NCBI GenBank assembly: GCA_900498135.1
Contig: LR026961.1
Span: 253,226-317,225, forward strand
DNA length: 64,000 nt
Reading direction: 5' to 3'
Source: an uncultured Desulfatiglans sp.
GTDB lineage: Bacteria > Desulfobacterota > DSM-4660 > Desulfatiglandales > Desulfatiglandaceae
Below, in pieces: positions 2,556 through 59,084 of the stretch (position 1 is the first letter of the stretch; each line of letters opens with the position of its first letter). Under the pieces are notes generated by a model. It was given only the letters and a program-made list of their open reading frames with translations, was not told the DNA's origin and searched no databases. A program made the translations under genes and the position numbers.

Positions 2556-3279
2556 CCCCTTTCCCCAGGTCAAACGCATCCTGCTCAAACTGAGCGGCGA
2601 GGCTTTGATGGGGGATGACCCTTACGGCATCGACGCCCCGGTCCTGCAGACCGTCGCAGATGAGATCGCGGCGATCGGCCGGCTGGGGATCCAACTGGGG
2701 ATCGTCGTCGGAGGGGGCAACATATTCAGAGGTCTGAAGGCCGGCCAGCTCAACATCGGACGGGTCGCCGCCGACCATATGGGCATGCTCGCCACCGTCA
2801 TCAATACGATCGCACTGGCCGAGGCACTGAGGGCGCAGGGCTGCGAGGCCCGGATCCTCAGTGCCATCCAGATGGAGAGCATCACCGAGCCCTTCAGCCG
2901 TGAGCGGGCGGTGGGTTACCTCGAAGGGGGAGCCATCGTCCATTTCTGCGCGGGAACCGGCAACCCGTTTTTCACCACGGATACGGCGGCCACGATAAGG
3001 GCCCTGGAAATCGATGCCGACGTCCTCCTCAAGGCAACCAAGGTGGACGGGGTCTATGACGCCGATCCGGTCATCCACCCCGAGGCGAGATTTTTCGGGT
3101 GCCTGACCCACCGTGAGGTCCTGGAAAAAAATCTGAGGGTCATGGATATGACGGCGATATCCCTCGCCATGGAACGCGGGCTCCAGATCGCCGTCTTCAA
3201 TCTGCGCAAGCCCGGCAACATAGAGCGGTTCATCCGGGGAGAGCCCGTCGGCACGCTCATCACAGGAGAGAAGACATGA
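2548..3279 (+). CDS. pyrH: UMP kinase
   Basis: Phosphorylates UMP to UDP in pyrimidine synthesis; amino-acid-kinase fold, hexameric. Family signatures are LKLSGEALMG near the N terminus, VVGGGNIFRG, the GTGNPFFTTDTAA segment and the KVDGVYDADP loop. I chose ATG 2548, which overlaps the tsf stop; a GTG at 2539 is in frame but has no better ribosome site. The product of 243 residues has normal length, and its end overlaps frr by 4 bp. Confidence 0.96.
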   Translation: MSNPFPQVKRILLKLSGEALMGDDPYGIDAPVLQTVADEIAAIGRLGIQLGIVVGGGNIFRGLKAGQLNIGRVAADHMGMLATVINTIALAEALRAQGCEARILSAIQMESITEPFSRERAVGYLEGGAIVHFCAGTGNPFFTTDTAATIRALEIDADVLLKATKVDGVYDADPVIHPEARFFGCLTHREVLEKNLRVMDMTAISLAMERGLQIAVFNLRKPGNIERFIRGEPVGTLITGEKT

Positions 3280-3833
3280 TCGATGAAATCCTTGCCGAAC
3301 TCCGGCAGAAAATGAACAAGTCCGTCGAATCGCTCCAGAAGGATTTCAAACGCATCCGCACGGGGCGTGCATCCAGCGCCCTGCTCGAAGGGATCAAGGT
3401 AGACTGCTACGAGACCCAGATGCCGCTCGATCAAGTGGCATCCATTTCGATACCGGAAAGCCGTCTCATCACTATTCAGCCCTGGGACAAATCGATCATG
3501 CCCAGCATCGAAAAGGCCATTCTCAAATCGGAATTGGGCCTGACGCCTTTGAACGACGGCAAGCTCATCCGGATCTCCATCCCCCCGCTGACCGAGGAAA
3601 GACGAAAAGAACTGGCCAAACTGGCGCGCAAGATGTCGGAAGAGAGCAAGATTGCGATCCGCAATCAACGGCGCGAGGCCAATGACTTGTTGAAGGAGAT
3701 GAAGAACGAGAAGGAGATCTCCGAAGATGAGATGTACCGGGCCCAGGAGCAGGTCCAGAAGGTGACCGATGAATTCATCAGCGCCGTCGATGACGTCACC
3801 TCCGCCAAGGAAAAGGAGATCATGGAATTCTAG
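3276..3833 (+). CDS. frr: ribosome recycling factor
   Basis: Splits post-termination ribosomes together with EF-G. The 185-residue length is exactly that of the family, and the sequence shows the diagnostic RTGRASSALLEGI, NPDNIGRNE-equivalent and RRDANDLLK-like (RREANDLLKEMKNEKEISED) stretches. ATGA overlap with pyrH. The gene is followed only 2 bp after its stop by a dispersed palindrome element that separates it from uppS. Confidence 0.97.
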   Translation: MIDEILAELRQKMNKSVESLQKDFKRIRTGRASSALLEGIKVDCYETQMPLDQVASISIPESRLITIQPWDKSIMPSIEKAILKSELGLTPLNDGKLIRISIPPLTEERRKELAKLARKMSEESKIAIRNQRREANDLLKEMKNEKEISEDEMYRAQEQVQKVTDEFISAVDDVTSAKEKEIMEF

Positions 3834-52088: not shown

Positions 52089-53753
52089 CTAAGGCGTGTA
52101 CAAGACGACGAGGCAGCGGGTCGGTTCGTTCGAGACGCTCTTCAGCTTGTGCGGGATGTCGGAGTTGAAGTGGCGGGAATCCCCCGGTTTGAGGTGGTGG
52201 GCGCGGTTGCCCAGGGTGAGCATGAGCTCCCCTTCCATGACGAAGATGAACTCTTCGCCTTCGTGCTTGTAGGCCACCGGCTTGTGGGTCTGTCGGGATT
52301 CGATGGTGATGAGGAAGGCGCGCAGGTGGTCGTTCTCGGCCCCCGGGCTGAGGGTCTGGTAGGAGTAGTTCCGGGTCCGCTTGACAAACGCCTGGGCGCG
52401 CAGGTCCCGGAGGAGCGTCTTCTGCTCCTGGCGCAGGAAGAGGCCGGGGTCGATCTTCAGGGCGTTTGCGAAACGGAGCAGAAAGCCGACGGGGGGCGTC
52501 AGGAGGCCCTCCTCCACCTGGCGGATGAATTCCGGGGATTCGCCCGTCGCCTCGGCCAAGGCCTCCAGGGACCAGCCGTACTGACTGCGAAGGCGGGCGA
52601 AACGCCCTCCGAAACCATCCCCTTCTCCGCCGCCCGCCGCTCCGGTCAAGGCATCCGCCATGCGCCGCAGGGTCAACTGCTGCACGGCCTCGGTCAGATG
52701 GGGCAGAAAGACCCGTGCATCCGCGACCACGCCGATATCGGCCATCCGGAAGATGGGGGCGTCCGCGTCTCGGTTGACGGCCACAATGGTCCCGGCCTCG
52801 CCGATCCCGGCCGTGTACTGAACGGCGCCGGAGGTGCCGACGGAAAAGAGCAGCCTCGGGTGGACCCGCTTTCCGGTCTGCCCGATCAGCCGCTCCTCCT
52901 CCACCCAGCGGGAGAGCACCGGCGGCCGGGTCGCGCCGACCTCCCCGCCGAGCGCAGCGGCCAGATCCCGAACGAGTCCGAATCCTTCCATATTCCCGAG
53001 GCCGGCCCCGCCGACGACCACGACATCCGCCTCCTCGAGCGACTGACCGCTCCCTGCTTCGGCTGCCACCTCGAGGAGCGTGCACCCGGCCTGCTCCTGG
53101 ATCTCATCCCATGCAAAAGATTCCAGAACCCCTGGGATCCCGCGCTCCTCACCGGGCATCCAGGCATACGGATCCACCGTGACGAGACCGGTCGCGCGGT
53201 CATCGGCGAACACGATCTCGGCCGTGACCGTTCCTCCCCAAGCCGGACATTGCGCCTTGACGCGGCCCTCCTCGACCTCGAGCCGGATGCAGTCGGCGAT
53301 CAGGCCCGAACCGGTCAACGCCGAGACGCGGGCCGCCGTCTCGCGGCCGAGGTCCGTCAGGGGAAAGACCACCAGGCGGGGGCCTGACACGGCGATCCGG
53401 TCGGCGAGCGCCTGTGCGAAAGCGTCCGCGGGCGCACCGCCCAACCATGGGATGCGATAGAGATGGACATCATCCGCGCCACCGGCAGCGGCGGCCTCCG
53501 CCGCCTCGTCCACCGGGACAGCCTCGACTGCAGGGGGGGTCGACCCGTCCAGCCGCTCGAGGGCCGTCAGCACCATGACCGTTCGGCCGCCTAGGGAGGA
53601 AGCCGCCCCGCGCGCGGCGCTCAAGGCCCGCAGGCTCAATCCGTAAAGGGTCTCGGTCCGGCGGTCGCCGAAGACCCAGACGGTGTTTTCAGCCGCATGC
53701 TGCATGTCTCTCGCCCCAGCCCCTTCTTGGAGCGTCTTTTCCGGGTGTGTCAT
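52089..53753 (-). CDS. electron-transfer flavoprotein alpha fused to XRE and cupin domains
   Basis: 554 residues in four parts. ETF-alpha N-terminal domain (about 22-210). ETF-alpha FAD domain (about 240-365) with the hallmark GQTGK (291-295), SVGTSGAVQYTAG and AVNRDADAPIF, so FAD binding looks intact. XRE helix-turn-helix (about 384-440: FARLRSQYGWSLEALAEATG). Cupin (about 475-552) with HEGEEFIF and IPHKLKS. Domain joins lie inside one uninterrupted frame. Coupled to etfB by ATGA. Likely a redox- or ligand-sensing regulator or a regulated ETF; I know no characterised protein of this build. Confidence 0.88.
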   Translation of the reverse strand: MTHPEKTLQEGAGARDMQHAAENTVWVFGDRRTETLYGLSLRALSAARGAASSLGGRTVMVLTALERLDGSTPPAVEAVPVDEAAEAAAAGGADDVHLYRIPWLGGAPADAFAQALADRIAVSGPRLVVFPLTDLGRETAARVSALTGSGLIADCIRLEVEEGRVKAQCPAWGGTVTAEIVFADDRATGLVTVDPYAWMPGEERGIPGVLESFAWDEIQEQAGCTLLEVAAEAGSGQSLEEADVVVVGGAGLGNMEGFGLVRDLAAALGGEVGATRPPVLSRWVEEERLIGQTGKRVHPRLLFSVGTSGAVQYTAGIGEAGTIVAVNRDADAPIFRMADIGVVADARVFLPHLTEAVQQLTLRRMADALTGAAGGGEGDGFGGRFARLRSQYGWSLEALAEATGESPEFIRQVEEGLLTPPVGFLLRFANALKIDPGLFLRQEQKTLLRDLRAQAFVKRTRNYSYQTLSPGAENDHLRAFLITIESRQTHKPVAYKHEGEEFIFVMEGELMLTLGNRAHHLKPGDSRHFNSDIPHKLKSVSNEPTRCLVVLYTP

Positions 53754-54585: not shown

Positions 54586-54744
54586 TTAACAGGTTGTTGA
54601 AAAACGCCCATCTGCTGCGTTTTGATCATCCCTCGTCACTGAGGCGTACGAATCACTACGCCTCATTCCTCGGGATTTCGCAAGCCTTGCATCCAGGCAC
54701 TTTCCCCCAGCCTGTCAAAAGCGGATTTTTCAACACGCTGTCAA
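54586..54744. mobile_element. 159-bp MITE-like element with terminal inverted repeats
   Basis: Ends TTAACAGGTTGTTGAAAAAC and, inverted, TTGACAGCGTGTTGAAAAAT form about 24-bp imperfect terminal repeats. Inside lies a perfect 9-bp hairpin, TGAGGCGTA (54640-54648) with TACGCCTCA (54657-54665). No coding capacity. Sits between acyl-CoA dehydrogenase and etfB. Unrelated to the long-palindrome family. Confidence 0.75.
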
Positions 54745-54787
54745 GCGACCGATCGGAAAAACGGGAGCGGCGCACCGGCCCCGTTCA

Positions 54788-55930
54788 TTATTCCTCCAGG
54801 AGTCCCCTGGCAACCACCAGCCGGTGGACCTCACTCGTCCCCTCGTAGATCCTTGTCACCCGGGCGTCGCGGTAATAGCGCTCCACGGGATAGGCCTTCG
54901 AATAGCCGTAGCCCCCATGAATCTGGAGGGCCTTGTCCGTCACCTCCGAGGCCGCCTCGGCTGCGTACAGCTTGGCCATGGCCGCCGCCTGCCCGAAAGG
55001 CTTGCCCTGATCGCGGAGTCGGGCCGATCGGTAGACGAGCAGGCGCGAGGCCTCTACCCGGGCCGCCATGTCCGCCAGCATCCCCCCCACGGCCTGGTGC
55101 TGCCCGATGGGGATGCCGAACTGCCGCCTCTGACGGGCGTACAAGACCCCCTCTTCCAGCGCGGCCTGGGAGATGCCGACCGCCTGGGCGGCGATGCCCA
55201 TCCGGCCGGTGTCGAGCGCCGCAAGACCGATTTTCAGCCCCATGCCCTCCCTTCCGAGCAGGTTTTCGGCGGGGACGGGACAGTCATAGAGCCGGATGGA
55301 ACTGACCGGGTTCGCACGCACGCCGCAAAGGTCCTCGAGATCCCCGACCACGAAACCCGGCGTTCCGCGTTCGGCCACGACCACGCTGATCCCCTTGCGG
55401 CCCGCCTTGGGATCCGTCCGGGCGAAGATCAGGCACACATCGGCGACGCCCCCGTTGGTCACGAACACCTTGTTGGCATTGACGATATAATGATCCCCGT
55501 TGCGAATGGCGGTCGCCTCGATGCCGGCCGCATCGGAGCCGGCGTTCGGTTCGGTCAGGCAGAAGGCGCCTATCTTCTGCCCCCTGGCGAGCGGCGGCAC
55601 CCATTTCCGCTTCTGCTCCTCGCTCCCGAAGGCCATGAGCGGGTAGACCGCCACGCTGTTGTGCACCGTCACGCAGAGGCCCAGCCCGGCGCAGACCCGG
55701 GAGATCTCCTCGATGGCGACGCAGTAGCAGACCGCGTCCATCCCCGCACCGCCCAGCTCCTGCGGGACCTGGATGCCGAAATACCCCAGGCGGCCCATCT
55801 TCTCGACCGCCTCCCAGGGAAAGGAGGCCTCCTGGTCGATCTGCCGGGCGATGGGCCGCAGCTCCCGCTCGCAGAATCCCCGCACCGAGCGGCGCACGGC
55901 GCGGCCCTTTTCCGTCAGAAATGTGTCCAT
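54788..55930 (-). CDS. acyl-CoA dehydrogenase
   Basis: FAD enzyme of 380 residues. [14 protein letters not shown] and [19 protein letters not shown] are the two family signatures; the catalytic Glu is in [11 protein letters not shown], the position used by butyryl-CoA-type enzymes. Substrate is unknown; pimeloyl- or glutaryl-CoA-derived intermediates are tempting in this organism but the residue pattern does not decide. ETF genes downstream would accept its electrons. Confidence 0.93.
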
Positions 55931-55971: not shown

Positions 55972-56430
55972 TCAACCCACCAGCCAGCCATGATTCACCT
56001 GGAATGCCTTCTTCAGGATCCGGAGCGTGCCCTTCTTGTCCTGGGGCCGCTTGACCATGATGCGGGTCTCCCCCATCACGAAGGTCAAATAGCTTTGAAA
56101 CTTGACATGGCTGACCGCGGAAAAATCCTCGCTGACGCGCCCTCGTCCATCCGGAAATTGAAAGGTGATCCTGCAATTCCCGAAGTCCAGATCGATCCAC
56201 TCGACAAACCGCCGCCGGTAAAAGAGGACGAGGGCATAAAAGGGGCCCACGAAAAAGACGCCCTTGAGGGCGGCGGCGAACCAATCGCCCTCGTTCGACC
56301 CGAAGATCAGAAAAACGACGAGCAGGTAAACGGTGACGGCAATCGGTTGAAGATGCCTGAAAAAAAACCGCTCCTCTCCAGGCATGGAAAATGAGTGTAC
56401 ATCCGACCGCGCATCCCCCTCGGCCATCAC
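55972..56430 (-). CDS. small membrane protein downstream of the dikinase-like gene
   Basis: 152 residues: two membrane helices near residues 30-70, then a cytoplasmic beta-rich domain (WIDLDFGNCRITFQFPDGRG). ATGA overlap with the preceding gene makes co-translation likely. No family recognised. Confidence 0.75.
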   Translation of the reverse strand: MMAEGDARSDVHSFSMPGEERFFFRHLQPIAVTVYLLVVFLIFGSNEGDWFAAALKGVFFVGPFYALVLFYRRRFVEWIDLDFGNCRITFQFPDGRGRVSEDFSAVSHVKFQSYLTFVMGETRIMVKRPQDKKGTLRILKKAFQVNHGWLVG

Positions 56431-59084
56431 TCCGCCTCCCTCTTCAAACGCTCCTGCTTCTCCATGGCGGCCTCCCGATGAAGCCTTCTGAGAACCTCCA
56501 GGTCGTGCAGGATCTTGCTGCGATAGCGGCTGACGGAGGCCCCGTCCTTCATGATCATATCCAGCTGGCGTGTGTGGATGGTCAGATATCCCAGGGCCTT
56601 CAGGTTTTCCTCCATCTCATCGCGCGCGCGGTCCTCGATCCGTGCGATGAGCATATCCTCCTTCACCTCGACCCGGAACCCCTGGTTTTCAAGGATATCG
56701 GCGATGAAGAGGATCCGCCGCTGACGTCGTTCATCGTCTGCGGCGCCGCCCTTGAAATGAAAACTGGCGTAGTTTTCGCTCGGGCGGTCGCTCACCAGGG
56801 CCTCCACCGTCGAAAAGTGAAAGCCCAGCCGGGAGGTCAAGCTGCAATAGTTCCTGGAGATCATGAAGTAGTTCCGCTCGGCATACCGGGACCGCACCCC
56901 GGTGACCAGATCCGTGTTGGTGGTCGCCTGGAACATGACCGAGAGCATGCCTCTCCCGTCGACCGGCGGGGGGCCTGCCCACGGTTTGAAACGGATTCCC
57001 TCCCAGATCGCCCGCATCGGGATCGAGACGATGTTTTCGAGCGCCACACGCCTCCCCTGCACCTCCTCCCTGAACCCGTCATCCAGGTTCAGGACCCACC
57101 ACTGCATGGGCACCTCGCACACGAGCTGCTTGCTCGAGCGCTCGGGGAAGTCGTGCTCCTTGCCGAAAAGGAACATCTCCGCCACGGCCTTCTCGTGGCA
57201 GAAACGGGTGATGTCGTGGAAGGTCCGGCAGTTTTCGGGCTTGAAGCCCATCGAATCGGGGTCGAGAAGATTCAAGGGTACGATCAGGGCTGCAGCCCCT
57301 TGAAGCGCCTTGTAAACCGGACTGCCCTCCATCAGGTTGCGGCGGGAGACAGGCGCGCGCCCGAGGAGGGCCTCCACCCGGCCGTCGTAAAGGGTGCGGC
57401 CATCCGCATCCACACTCACGATTCGCCCTTCTTCCAGACTGTCCATCACCCCTTCGAGGCCGAAGAGCGCCGGGACTCCAAATTCGCGGGCCACATTGGC
57501 GAGGTGCCCCGCAATGCCCCCCTGCTCAGTGACCACCGCCGCGGCACGGCTCAGAAGGGTCGCCCAGCGCGGCAGGGACTGGGAAGCCACCAGGACAGCC
57601 CCTTCAGGAAACCGGAGGGTGTCCATGTCCTTCCGCACCTTGAAGACGGGTCCAACGCCCACCCCGGGGCTGGCCGTCACACCCCCGCTCGCGATTCCTC
57701 GAACCCCGTCCGCAGCGCCAGCAATCCCCGCAGCGTCTTGCGGCCCCGGCTCCGTCCGCTGCTCCAAGGGTCTGCACTGCAGAACCACCAGCCTGCCCTC
57801 TCCGTCGACGGCCCATTCAATGTCCTGCGCGACCCCGTAATACGCCTCGAGACGCCTGGCCAGCAAGGCGAGTTCGATCGCCTGTTCATCCGTCAGAGAG
57901 GGTTTGTCCGCCTCCTCATCCAGGTCATCGAGCCGGCAAACCCCTTCGGCCGGATAGCAGACGAACTTCTCCCGCTTGCGGGAAACATTCCGATGGTGGA
58001 TGACGGGCGGATCTTCCCTCCCTACAACGAAAAGGTCCGTGGGCGTGCTGCCGTCGACGACCGACTTGGGCAGCCCCCACACCGCATGGATCATCACGGC
58101 GTCATCGCGGATATCCACCGGATTTCGGGAATAGGTCACACCGCCCGCCACGGCATCGACCATGGCCATGCACGCGACACACATGGCTACATCTTCGTCC
58201 CGGATCCCCCGGTTGAAACGATAGGTCATGGCCGTCAAACCATACTTGCTGGCGACGATCTCCTTATAGGCGTCGAAGAGGTTCTCCCTGCTGACATTCA
58301 GCTGGGAGCGGTACTGGCCTGCAAAGGATACCCCTTCCAGATCCTCGCCGAGAGCGCTGCTGCGCATAGCCACGGTCACCCCCGGATTTTCCTTCGCCTC
58401 GAGGGACCGGTAGGCCGCTCTCAGAGCCTCCTCGAGCTCGGGTGGCATGGGGGCTTGAATAATCAGCTGCTGAATGGAGGCGCTCAAGGCGTAGAGTTGA
58501 TCGAGGCGCTCCACATCCGTGGCCTGAATGCGCCGGTCGATCTCCGGCTGCAGCTCGCTGTGGGCCATGAACCGCTGGTAAGCCACAGCCGTGATGGCAA
58601 AGCCGCTGGGAACCCGTATATTCAGCCGGTTTCGGACCTCGCCCAGGTTGGCGATCTTGCCCCCGACCTGATCCGCGCAGTTCCGGTCGATGGCCTCGAG
58701 GGGGAGGGTCCATTCTCCTTCCCACAAATGGACATCGGTCTGAATGAATGGATTCAGCTGTTTCTGGATGGTCTTGAAGCGGTCGAACAGGACGGCGTAC
58801 CTGTCTTGCGACAACTCATTGATGTGCTTAACGATCTTGAAAACGCTGGTCGAGACGGCAATACAGCGCGAACGGACGAAGTGCATCCCGAAGGGTGCCG
58901 ACCCCCTCAGGGCGCCTTCCATCTCCGCCATCGTGTCCAGCGCCTGATTGTTGGCGCTCAGGAGCAGTTTGAACTGATGGTACCGTGCCCTGAAGTCGTT
59001 ACGCAGACGTTCCACATCTCCGCTGAAAGACCCGGCCCCCCTTTTAAAGCAGGAAACCAGAAATGCTTTGATACGCCGCATCAT
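56427..59084 (-). CDS. PEP-synthase-like protein: ATP-grasp plus phospho-histidine domain
   Basis: 885 residues. Residues 1-130 form a helical extension; 135-440 a PPDK-type ATP-grasp domain (GGKIANLGEV, VAMRSSALGEDLEGVSFAGQY, IEWAVDGEGRLVVLQCRP); 465-560 a mobile phospho-His domain with TEQGGIAGHLANVAREFGVP, His527. The remaining 320 residues show none of the PEP/pyruvate barrel motifs. So it can probably phosphorylate its own His from ATP, but the final acceptor is unknown. Phenylphosphate synthase and rifampin phosphotransferase are known dikinase relatives without a PEP barrel. Confidence 0.82.
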   Translation of the reverse strand: MMRRIKAFLVSCFKRGAGSFSGDVERLRNDFRARYHQFKLLLSANNQALDTMAEMEGALRGSAPFGMHFVRSRCIAVSTSVFKIVKHINELSQDRYAVLFDRFKTIQKQLNPFIQTDVHLWEGEWTLPLEAIDRNCADQVGGKIANLGEVRNRLNIRVPSGFAITAVAYQRFMAHSELQPEIDRRIQATDVERLDQLYALSASIQQLIIQAPMPPELEEALRAAYRSLEAKENPGVTVAMRSSALGEDLEGVSFAGQYRSQLNVSRENLFDAYKEIVASKYGLTAMTYRFNRGIRDEDVAMCVACMAMVDAVAGGVTYSRNPVDIRDDAVMIHAVWGLPKSVVDGSTPTDLFVVGREDPPVIHHRNVSRKREKFVCYPAEGVCRLDDLDEEADKPSLTDEQAIELALLARRLEAYYGVAQDIEWAVDGEGRLVVLQCRPLEQRTEPGPQDAAGIAGAADGVRGIASGGVTASPGVGVGPVFKVRKDMDTLRFPEGAVLVASQSLPRWATLLSRAAAVVTEQGGIAGHLANVAREFGVPALFGLEGVMDSLEEGRIVSVDADGRTLYDGRVEALLGRAPVSRRNLMEGSPVYKALQGAAALIVPLNLLDPDSMGFKPENCRTFHDITRFCHEKAVAEMFLFGKEHDFPERSSKQLVCEVPMQWWVLNLDDGFREEVQGRRVALENIVSIPMRAIWEGIRFKPWAGPPPVDGRGMLSVMFQATTNTDLVTGVRSRYAERNYFMISRNYCSLTSRLGFHFSTVEALVSDRPSENYASFHFKGGAADDERRQRRILFIADILENQGFRVEVKEDMLIARIEDRARDEMEENLKALGYLTIHTRQLDMIMKDGASVSRYRSKILHDLEVLRRLHREAAMEKQERLKREAE

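Follow-up and report, generated by a model that had tools for sequence, protein, structure and literature searches.

The fused etfA gene and its operon

The 64,000-nucleotide (nt) window analysed here, from an uncultured Desulfatiglans sp. (assembly GCA_900498135.1, contig LR026961.1, positions 253,226 to 317,225), carries on its minus strand an operon for an acyl-CoA dehydrogenase, for EtfB of an electron-transfer flavoprotein (ETF), and for a 554-amino acid (aa) protein that joins the ETF alpha subunit, EtfA, to a XRE-type helix-turn-helix (HTH) and a cupin (Table 1). The first-pass annotation had read one frame as a complete ETF-alpha followed by these two domains, translationally coupled to etfB and lying downstream of an acyl-CoA dehydrogenase gene. 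The 554-aa open reading frame (ORF) and its Pfam domains agree: the coordinates given for the gene were exact, and its strand, left unsaid, is minus, the opposite plus-strand frame over the same interval being interrupted by stops. The stop codon of etfB and the start codon of the fusion share the sequence ATGA, and the dehydrogenase gene lies upstream of both on the same strand, separated from etfB by 249 nt in the source genome.

Both ETF domains exceed the curated Pfam cut-offs that define an EtfA, and the EtfA part is complete. It is followed by a XRE-type HTH and then a Cupin_2 domain, the order of XRE-cupin regulators, again all above cut-offs. The GQTGK and AVNRDADAPIF segments that had been pointed out are both present in the translation, and the predicted binding motif for the alpha flavin adenine dinucleotide (FAD) is largely intact, with a Tyr in place of its His. 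In Foldseek searches the predicted folds resemble EtfA (E about 1e-23) and the XRE-cupin protein 1y9q (1e-11); HppE is a further match.

Table 1. Features of the etfA::XRE-cupin locus in window coordinates
Feature	Position	Strand	Basis
etfA::XRE-cupin fusion gene, 554 aa	52089..53753	minus	ATG ORF, Pfam, collinear homologues
Cupin, residues 486-550, with His497-Glu501-His535 triad	52104..52298	minus	Cupin_2 PF07883, 57.4 bits (cut-off 27.2)
XRE-type HTH, residues 381-437	52443..52613	minus	HTH_31 PF13560 (residues 381-436), 36.7 bits (cut-off 27); HTH_3 PF01381 (residues 387-437), 34.1 bits (cut-off 23); Foldseek 1y9q
EtfA FAD-binding domain II (ETF_alpha), residues 239-317	52803..53039	minus	PF00766, 92.9 bits (cut-off 27)
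Tyr313, replaces conserved alpha-FAD His; Tyr/Phe in all fused proteins	52815..52817	minus	Alignment
GQTGK motif, residues 291-295	52869..52883	minus	Translation, conservation
EtfA ETF domain I, residues 25-202	53148..53681	minus	PF01012, 80.2 bits (cut-off 26.7)
Cys169, replaces C. difficile EtfA Arg136; Cys/Ser/Val in all fused proteins	53247..53249	minus	Alignment
etfB, 262 aa	53750..54538	minus	ORF, PF01012; stop overlaps fusion start by 4 nt
Dispersed repeat between acyl-CoA dehydrogenase gene and etfB, 9-bp perfect stem	54590..54750	minus	~20 genome copies
Acyl-CoA dehydrogenase, 380 aa, catalytic-base motif YEGT present	54788..55930	minus	Pfam, NCBIfam

Among solved structures, the dehydrogenase is closest to the butyryl-CoA dehydrogenase of C. 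difficile (5ol2_C, 422 bits). A dispersed repeat accounts for most of the gap between the dehydrogenase gene and etfB; it is about 150 nt long, has TTGAAAAA-like ends and is missing at this position in a genome of the same genus. A perfect inverted repeat at 54640-54665 was considered as an operator and rejected, since it is part of this dispersed repeat. Directly upstream of the dehydrogenase gene lies an ORF (55972-56430, minus strand) whose 152-aa product matches no Pfam family, preceded by one (56427-59084, minus strand) with a product of 885 aa that carries PPDK_N and PEP-utilizers domains.

Distribution and ancestry of the join

The search for full-length collinear homologues proposed in the first-pass annotation finds them in the same genus, on other contigs, and across the class and the phylum. 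The genome of another species of the genus has a full-length homologue with 93% identity. A scan of genome contigs gives 23 loci in which nearly the whole protein is matched at 48-57% identity, one of them (L013) holding unknown bases; at least 22 contigs of other genomes thereby carry a full-length collinear homologue. Profile matches occur in 22 of 395 genomes of the phylum and in 24 of 85 of the class; they include a genome that lacks the XRE-cupin part (G032) and one cut by a contig end (G002). The same join is carried by 21/395 phylum genomes and by about a quarter of the class genomes (about 22/85), complete genomes such as that of Desulfosarcina widdelii being among the carriers. The outcome that had been named as a refutation, homologues always found as separate etfA and XRE-cupin genes, did not occur. 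A sequencing or assembly artefact joining two genes has a negligible probability, because the identical join is present in dozens of separately assembled genomes, complete ones included. These comparisons indicate that the etfA::XRE-cupin join is real, old and conserved.

All fused loci on contigs that extend far enough keep the order acyl-CoA dehydrogenase-etfB-fusion, those of divergent fused proteins (36-42% identity) from other families included. Among the close loci the dehydrogenase is more conserved (71-84% identity) than EtfB (42-54%) or the fusion (48-57%), which fits a single fixed partner. No other widely shared neighbour of the fused operon was found among the compared loci; at two of them (L077 and L078) the gene directly upstream reads, from its sequence, as a 3-hydroxybutyryl-CoA dehydrogenase.

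In a tree computed without the most divergent trio, the EtfA domains of the fused proteins fall on one side of a branch with a support of 96. For the XRE-cupin domain, a single clade of fused proteins is not rejected (p-AU, the p-value of the approximately unbiased test, 0.50). The data are compatible with a single origin of the fusion; two independent fusions had been hinted at by the first trees, and the later tests did not reject a single one. Plasmid records gave ordinary EtfA matches only, the fusion not being found in them.

One fused locus (L003, CP070743.1) is labelled Nitrospirota. A spread outside the phylum is doubtful because its fusion is most closely related to that on a Desulfatiglandales contig, pointing to a mislabelled bin or a recent transfer. 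The dehydrogenase gene of this locus is missing beside an assembly gap.

The flavin site and the XRE-cupin module

Alignment of the alpha-FAD site identifies Arg276 and Thr293 as kept and the third residue, a His in canonical and bifurcating ETFs (PMC12630350), as replaced by Tyr313. The Arg, the Thr and GQTGK are retained in nearly all fused proteins. The best solved relatives of the dehydrogenase, EtfB and the fusion include the C. difficile complex 5ol2 and CarCDE (6fah), which suggested a bifurcating ETF. This assignment was rejected because two marker residues are changed. Arg136 of C. difficile EtfA, which touches N5 of the beta-FAD (PMC5691135), is Cys169 here. The position of EtfB Gly123 (A. 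fermentans numbering), described as invariant in bifurcating ETFs (PMC12630350), is Ser122 here, Ser in most relatives and Gly in a few; Ser being small, this is a weak mark alone. The unfused sister EtfAs show comparable changes, with Thr for the Arg136-type Arg and Tyr or Phe for the His, so that the altered residues characterise this branch of ETFs rather than the fusion. These sisters (L116-L123) are encoded in the same order dehydrogenase-etfB-etfA. In place of the XRE-cupin part of the fused operons, theirs continue after etfA with a gene (e.g. L121:4237-4698) for a small conserved protein, about 150 aa long, that matches no Pfam family above cut-off.

The flavin site bears on the possibility of a direct redox-to-transcription switch, in which reduction of the alpha-FAD by acyl-CoA oxidation would set DNA binding of the HTH. 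Retention of the FAD motif is in line with it, as is the attachment of the module to domain II, which in solved EtfA complexes moves from one partner to the other (PMC5691135). A precedent is the trifunctional flavoenzyme proline utilization A (PutA), a repressor that switches according to the redox state of its flavin (PMC5293562). However, flavin reduction weakens DNA binding of PutA only about 2-fold and acts mainly via membrane binding (PMC5293562). A conserved cupin pocket would moreover be unnecessary for such a switch, and the altered FAD-site residues, being found also in the unfused sister ETFs, are therefore no adaptation to sensing. We regard this mechanism as quite improbable.

The cupin is, together with the FAD domain, the best-conserved part of the fusion. 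Its H497, E501 and H535 are invariant in 76 fused and free-standing sequences, one truncated sequence excepted. In the HTH, most fused proteins have kept Arg389, the basic residues of helix 1 and the T/S-P-E/D-F sequence with which the recognition helix starts. The ratio of nonsynonymous to synonymous substitution rates (dN/dS) is 0.02-0.21 for the HTH in most close pairs and at most 0.11 for the cupin in nearly all; both domains are under purifying selection.

The closest free-standing XRE-cupins, with 43-46% identity to the module, are encoded in operons, between genes for MeaB and methylmalonyl-CoA mutase on one side and one for an acyl-CoA dehydrogenase on the other. In the source genome itself, such a close relative stands beside thiolase, crotonase and dehydrogenase genes, and more distant ones of Bacteroidota and Treponema precede genes for AMP-dependent acyl-CoA ligases (the neighbours in both cases being named from their sequence). 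Since its relatives adjoin acyl-CoA genes, the module was probably a regulator of acyl-CoA pathways before the fusion. On contig C1 of genome G000 one XRE-cupin gene is matched with equal score at 2982-3503 and at 4794276-4794797; the two ends of this contig seem to overlap each other by about 9.8 kb.

Possible roles of the fusion

The hypothesis that we favour, at slightly less than an even chance, is that the fusion belongs to a dedicated ETF which, in the manner of PutA, has its own autoregulator built in, one that responds to a ligand. The operon would make one acyl-CoA dehydrogenase of short-chain type and its own private ETF, with the XRE-cupin module sitting on the C-terminal end of the mobile FAD domain of the alpha subunit. 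While substrate is oxidised and the protein is docked, the fusion would act as electron carrier; when undocked it would regulate transcription of its own operon and perhaps of others. The main input would most likely be a pathway metabolite that occupies the metal-type pocket of the cupin, such as an acyl-CoA or related carboxylate, with the state of the FAD domain, docked or undocked, oxidised or reduced, as a possible second input. That the protein contains FAD and binds DNA is inferred, as are its ligand, its target and the direction of control. A regulatory role is indirectly supported, as free-standing XRE-cupins adjoin acyl-CoA genes and the HTH and cupin are under purifying selection.

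Several observations weigh against this autoregulator hypothesis. In genome G032 the operon lacks its XRE-cupin part. Its EtfA nests inside the fused group beside L002 (support 98) and no XRE-cupin remnant was found downstream of its operon; it therefore looks like a secondary loss. The net charge of the fused HTHs averages -1.6 and that of the closest free-standing ones +3.0 (permutation p 0/20000, a value that ignores relatedness). Positions 411 and 412 of the fused HTHs, which by analogy with the 434 repressor would face DNA, vary. A search for palindromic motifs in the 300 nt upstream of the dehydrogenase gene in about 20 loci found no conserved operator; a weak palindromic signal of widths 16-18 was rejected, as it resembles a promoter -10 region common to related genomes. 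The AlphaFold2 model of the fusion (mean predicted local distance difference test score, pLDDT, 72; predicted template modelling score, pTM, 0.41) has recognisable domains, and their predicted mutual arrangement is uncertain.

The acidic HTH, the variable positions 411-412 and the outcome of the operator search would also be expected if the XRE-cupin module no longer binds DNA and serves the ETF-dehydrogenase complex instead as a ligand-sensing allosteric, docking, oligomerisation or metal-cupin enzyme domain. Conservation of the cupin together with the FAD domain agrees with such a role, and the HppE found by Foldseek is a HTH-cupin protein that is an enzyme. The HTH is nevertheless under purifying selection and keeps its helix-1 basic residues and recognition-helix start. 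The more distant free-standing XRE-cupins of Bacteroidota are also slightly acidic, so that charge alone does not decide DNA binding. Loss of DNA binding is a serious, somewhat unlikely alternative, and DNA binding by the fused HTH is plausible.

Electron-transfer flavoproteins have been treated as passive electron carriers. Another reading is that the ETF itself is a transcription factor, transcription of an acyl-CoA oxidation operon being set directly by a metabolite in the cupin and by the reduction or docking state of the FAD domain; we consider this unlikely. We found no description of an ETF joined to a DNA-binding domain in the open-access literature (subscription journals were not covered). 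The parts are of known kinds; their combination, its conservation and the operon appear to be undescribed. The carriers are uncultured and cultured sulfate-reducer-type bacteria, which are important in carbon turnover of sediments; little is known of how they regulate fatty-acid oxidation at the level of transcription. Because the cultured Desulfatibacillum alkenivorans and D. widdelii carry the fusion, the family is testable.

The butyryl-CoA dehydrogenase-EtfAB complexes 5ol2 and 6fah consist of the same three proteins without extra domains; the locus described here differs by the Arg136 to Cys change, by a Gly123 position that is mostly Ser and by the C-terminal domains, and bifurcation is unsupported. 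XRE-cupin regulators of the PuuR type and 1y9q share the HTH-cupin order, the H-E-H residues being common to the free-standing relatives examined. The PuuR-type proteins are small and free-standing, whereas the module is here fused to EtfA and has a less basic HTH. BzdR likewise combines a XRE HTH with a domain derived from an enzyme, and belongs to the anaerobic metabolism of an acyl-CoA, benzoyl-CoA. Its enzyme domain lost activity and became a ligand sensor (PMC3602430), whereas the fusion has a largely preserved flavin site and, in addition, a cupin. In PutA a catabolic flavoprotein is likewise covalently joined to a DNA-binding domain, autogenous control being a proposed further similarity, and fusion and synteny here place a DNA-binding-type domain on a flavoprotein of the same operon. 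The fusion is no relative of PutA: its XRE-cupin part is C-terminal and carried by an electron carrier, its DNA binding is predicted, and it has a separate sensor-like cupin. If the autoregulator hypothesis is true, the fusion would join PutA as a second design for letting a redox protein report on the pathway to which it belongs.
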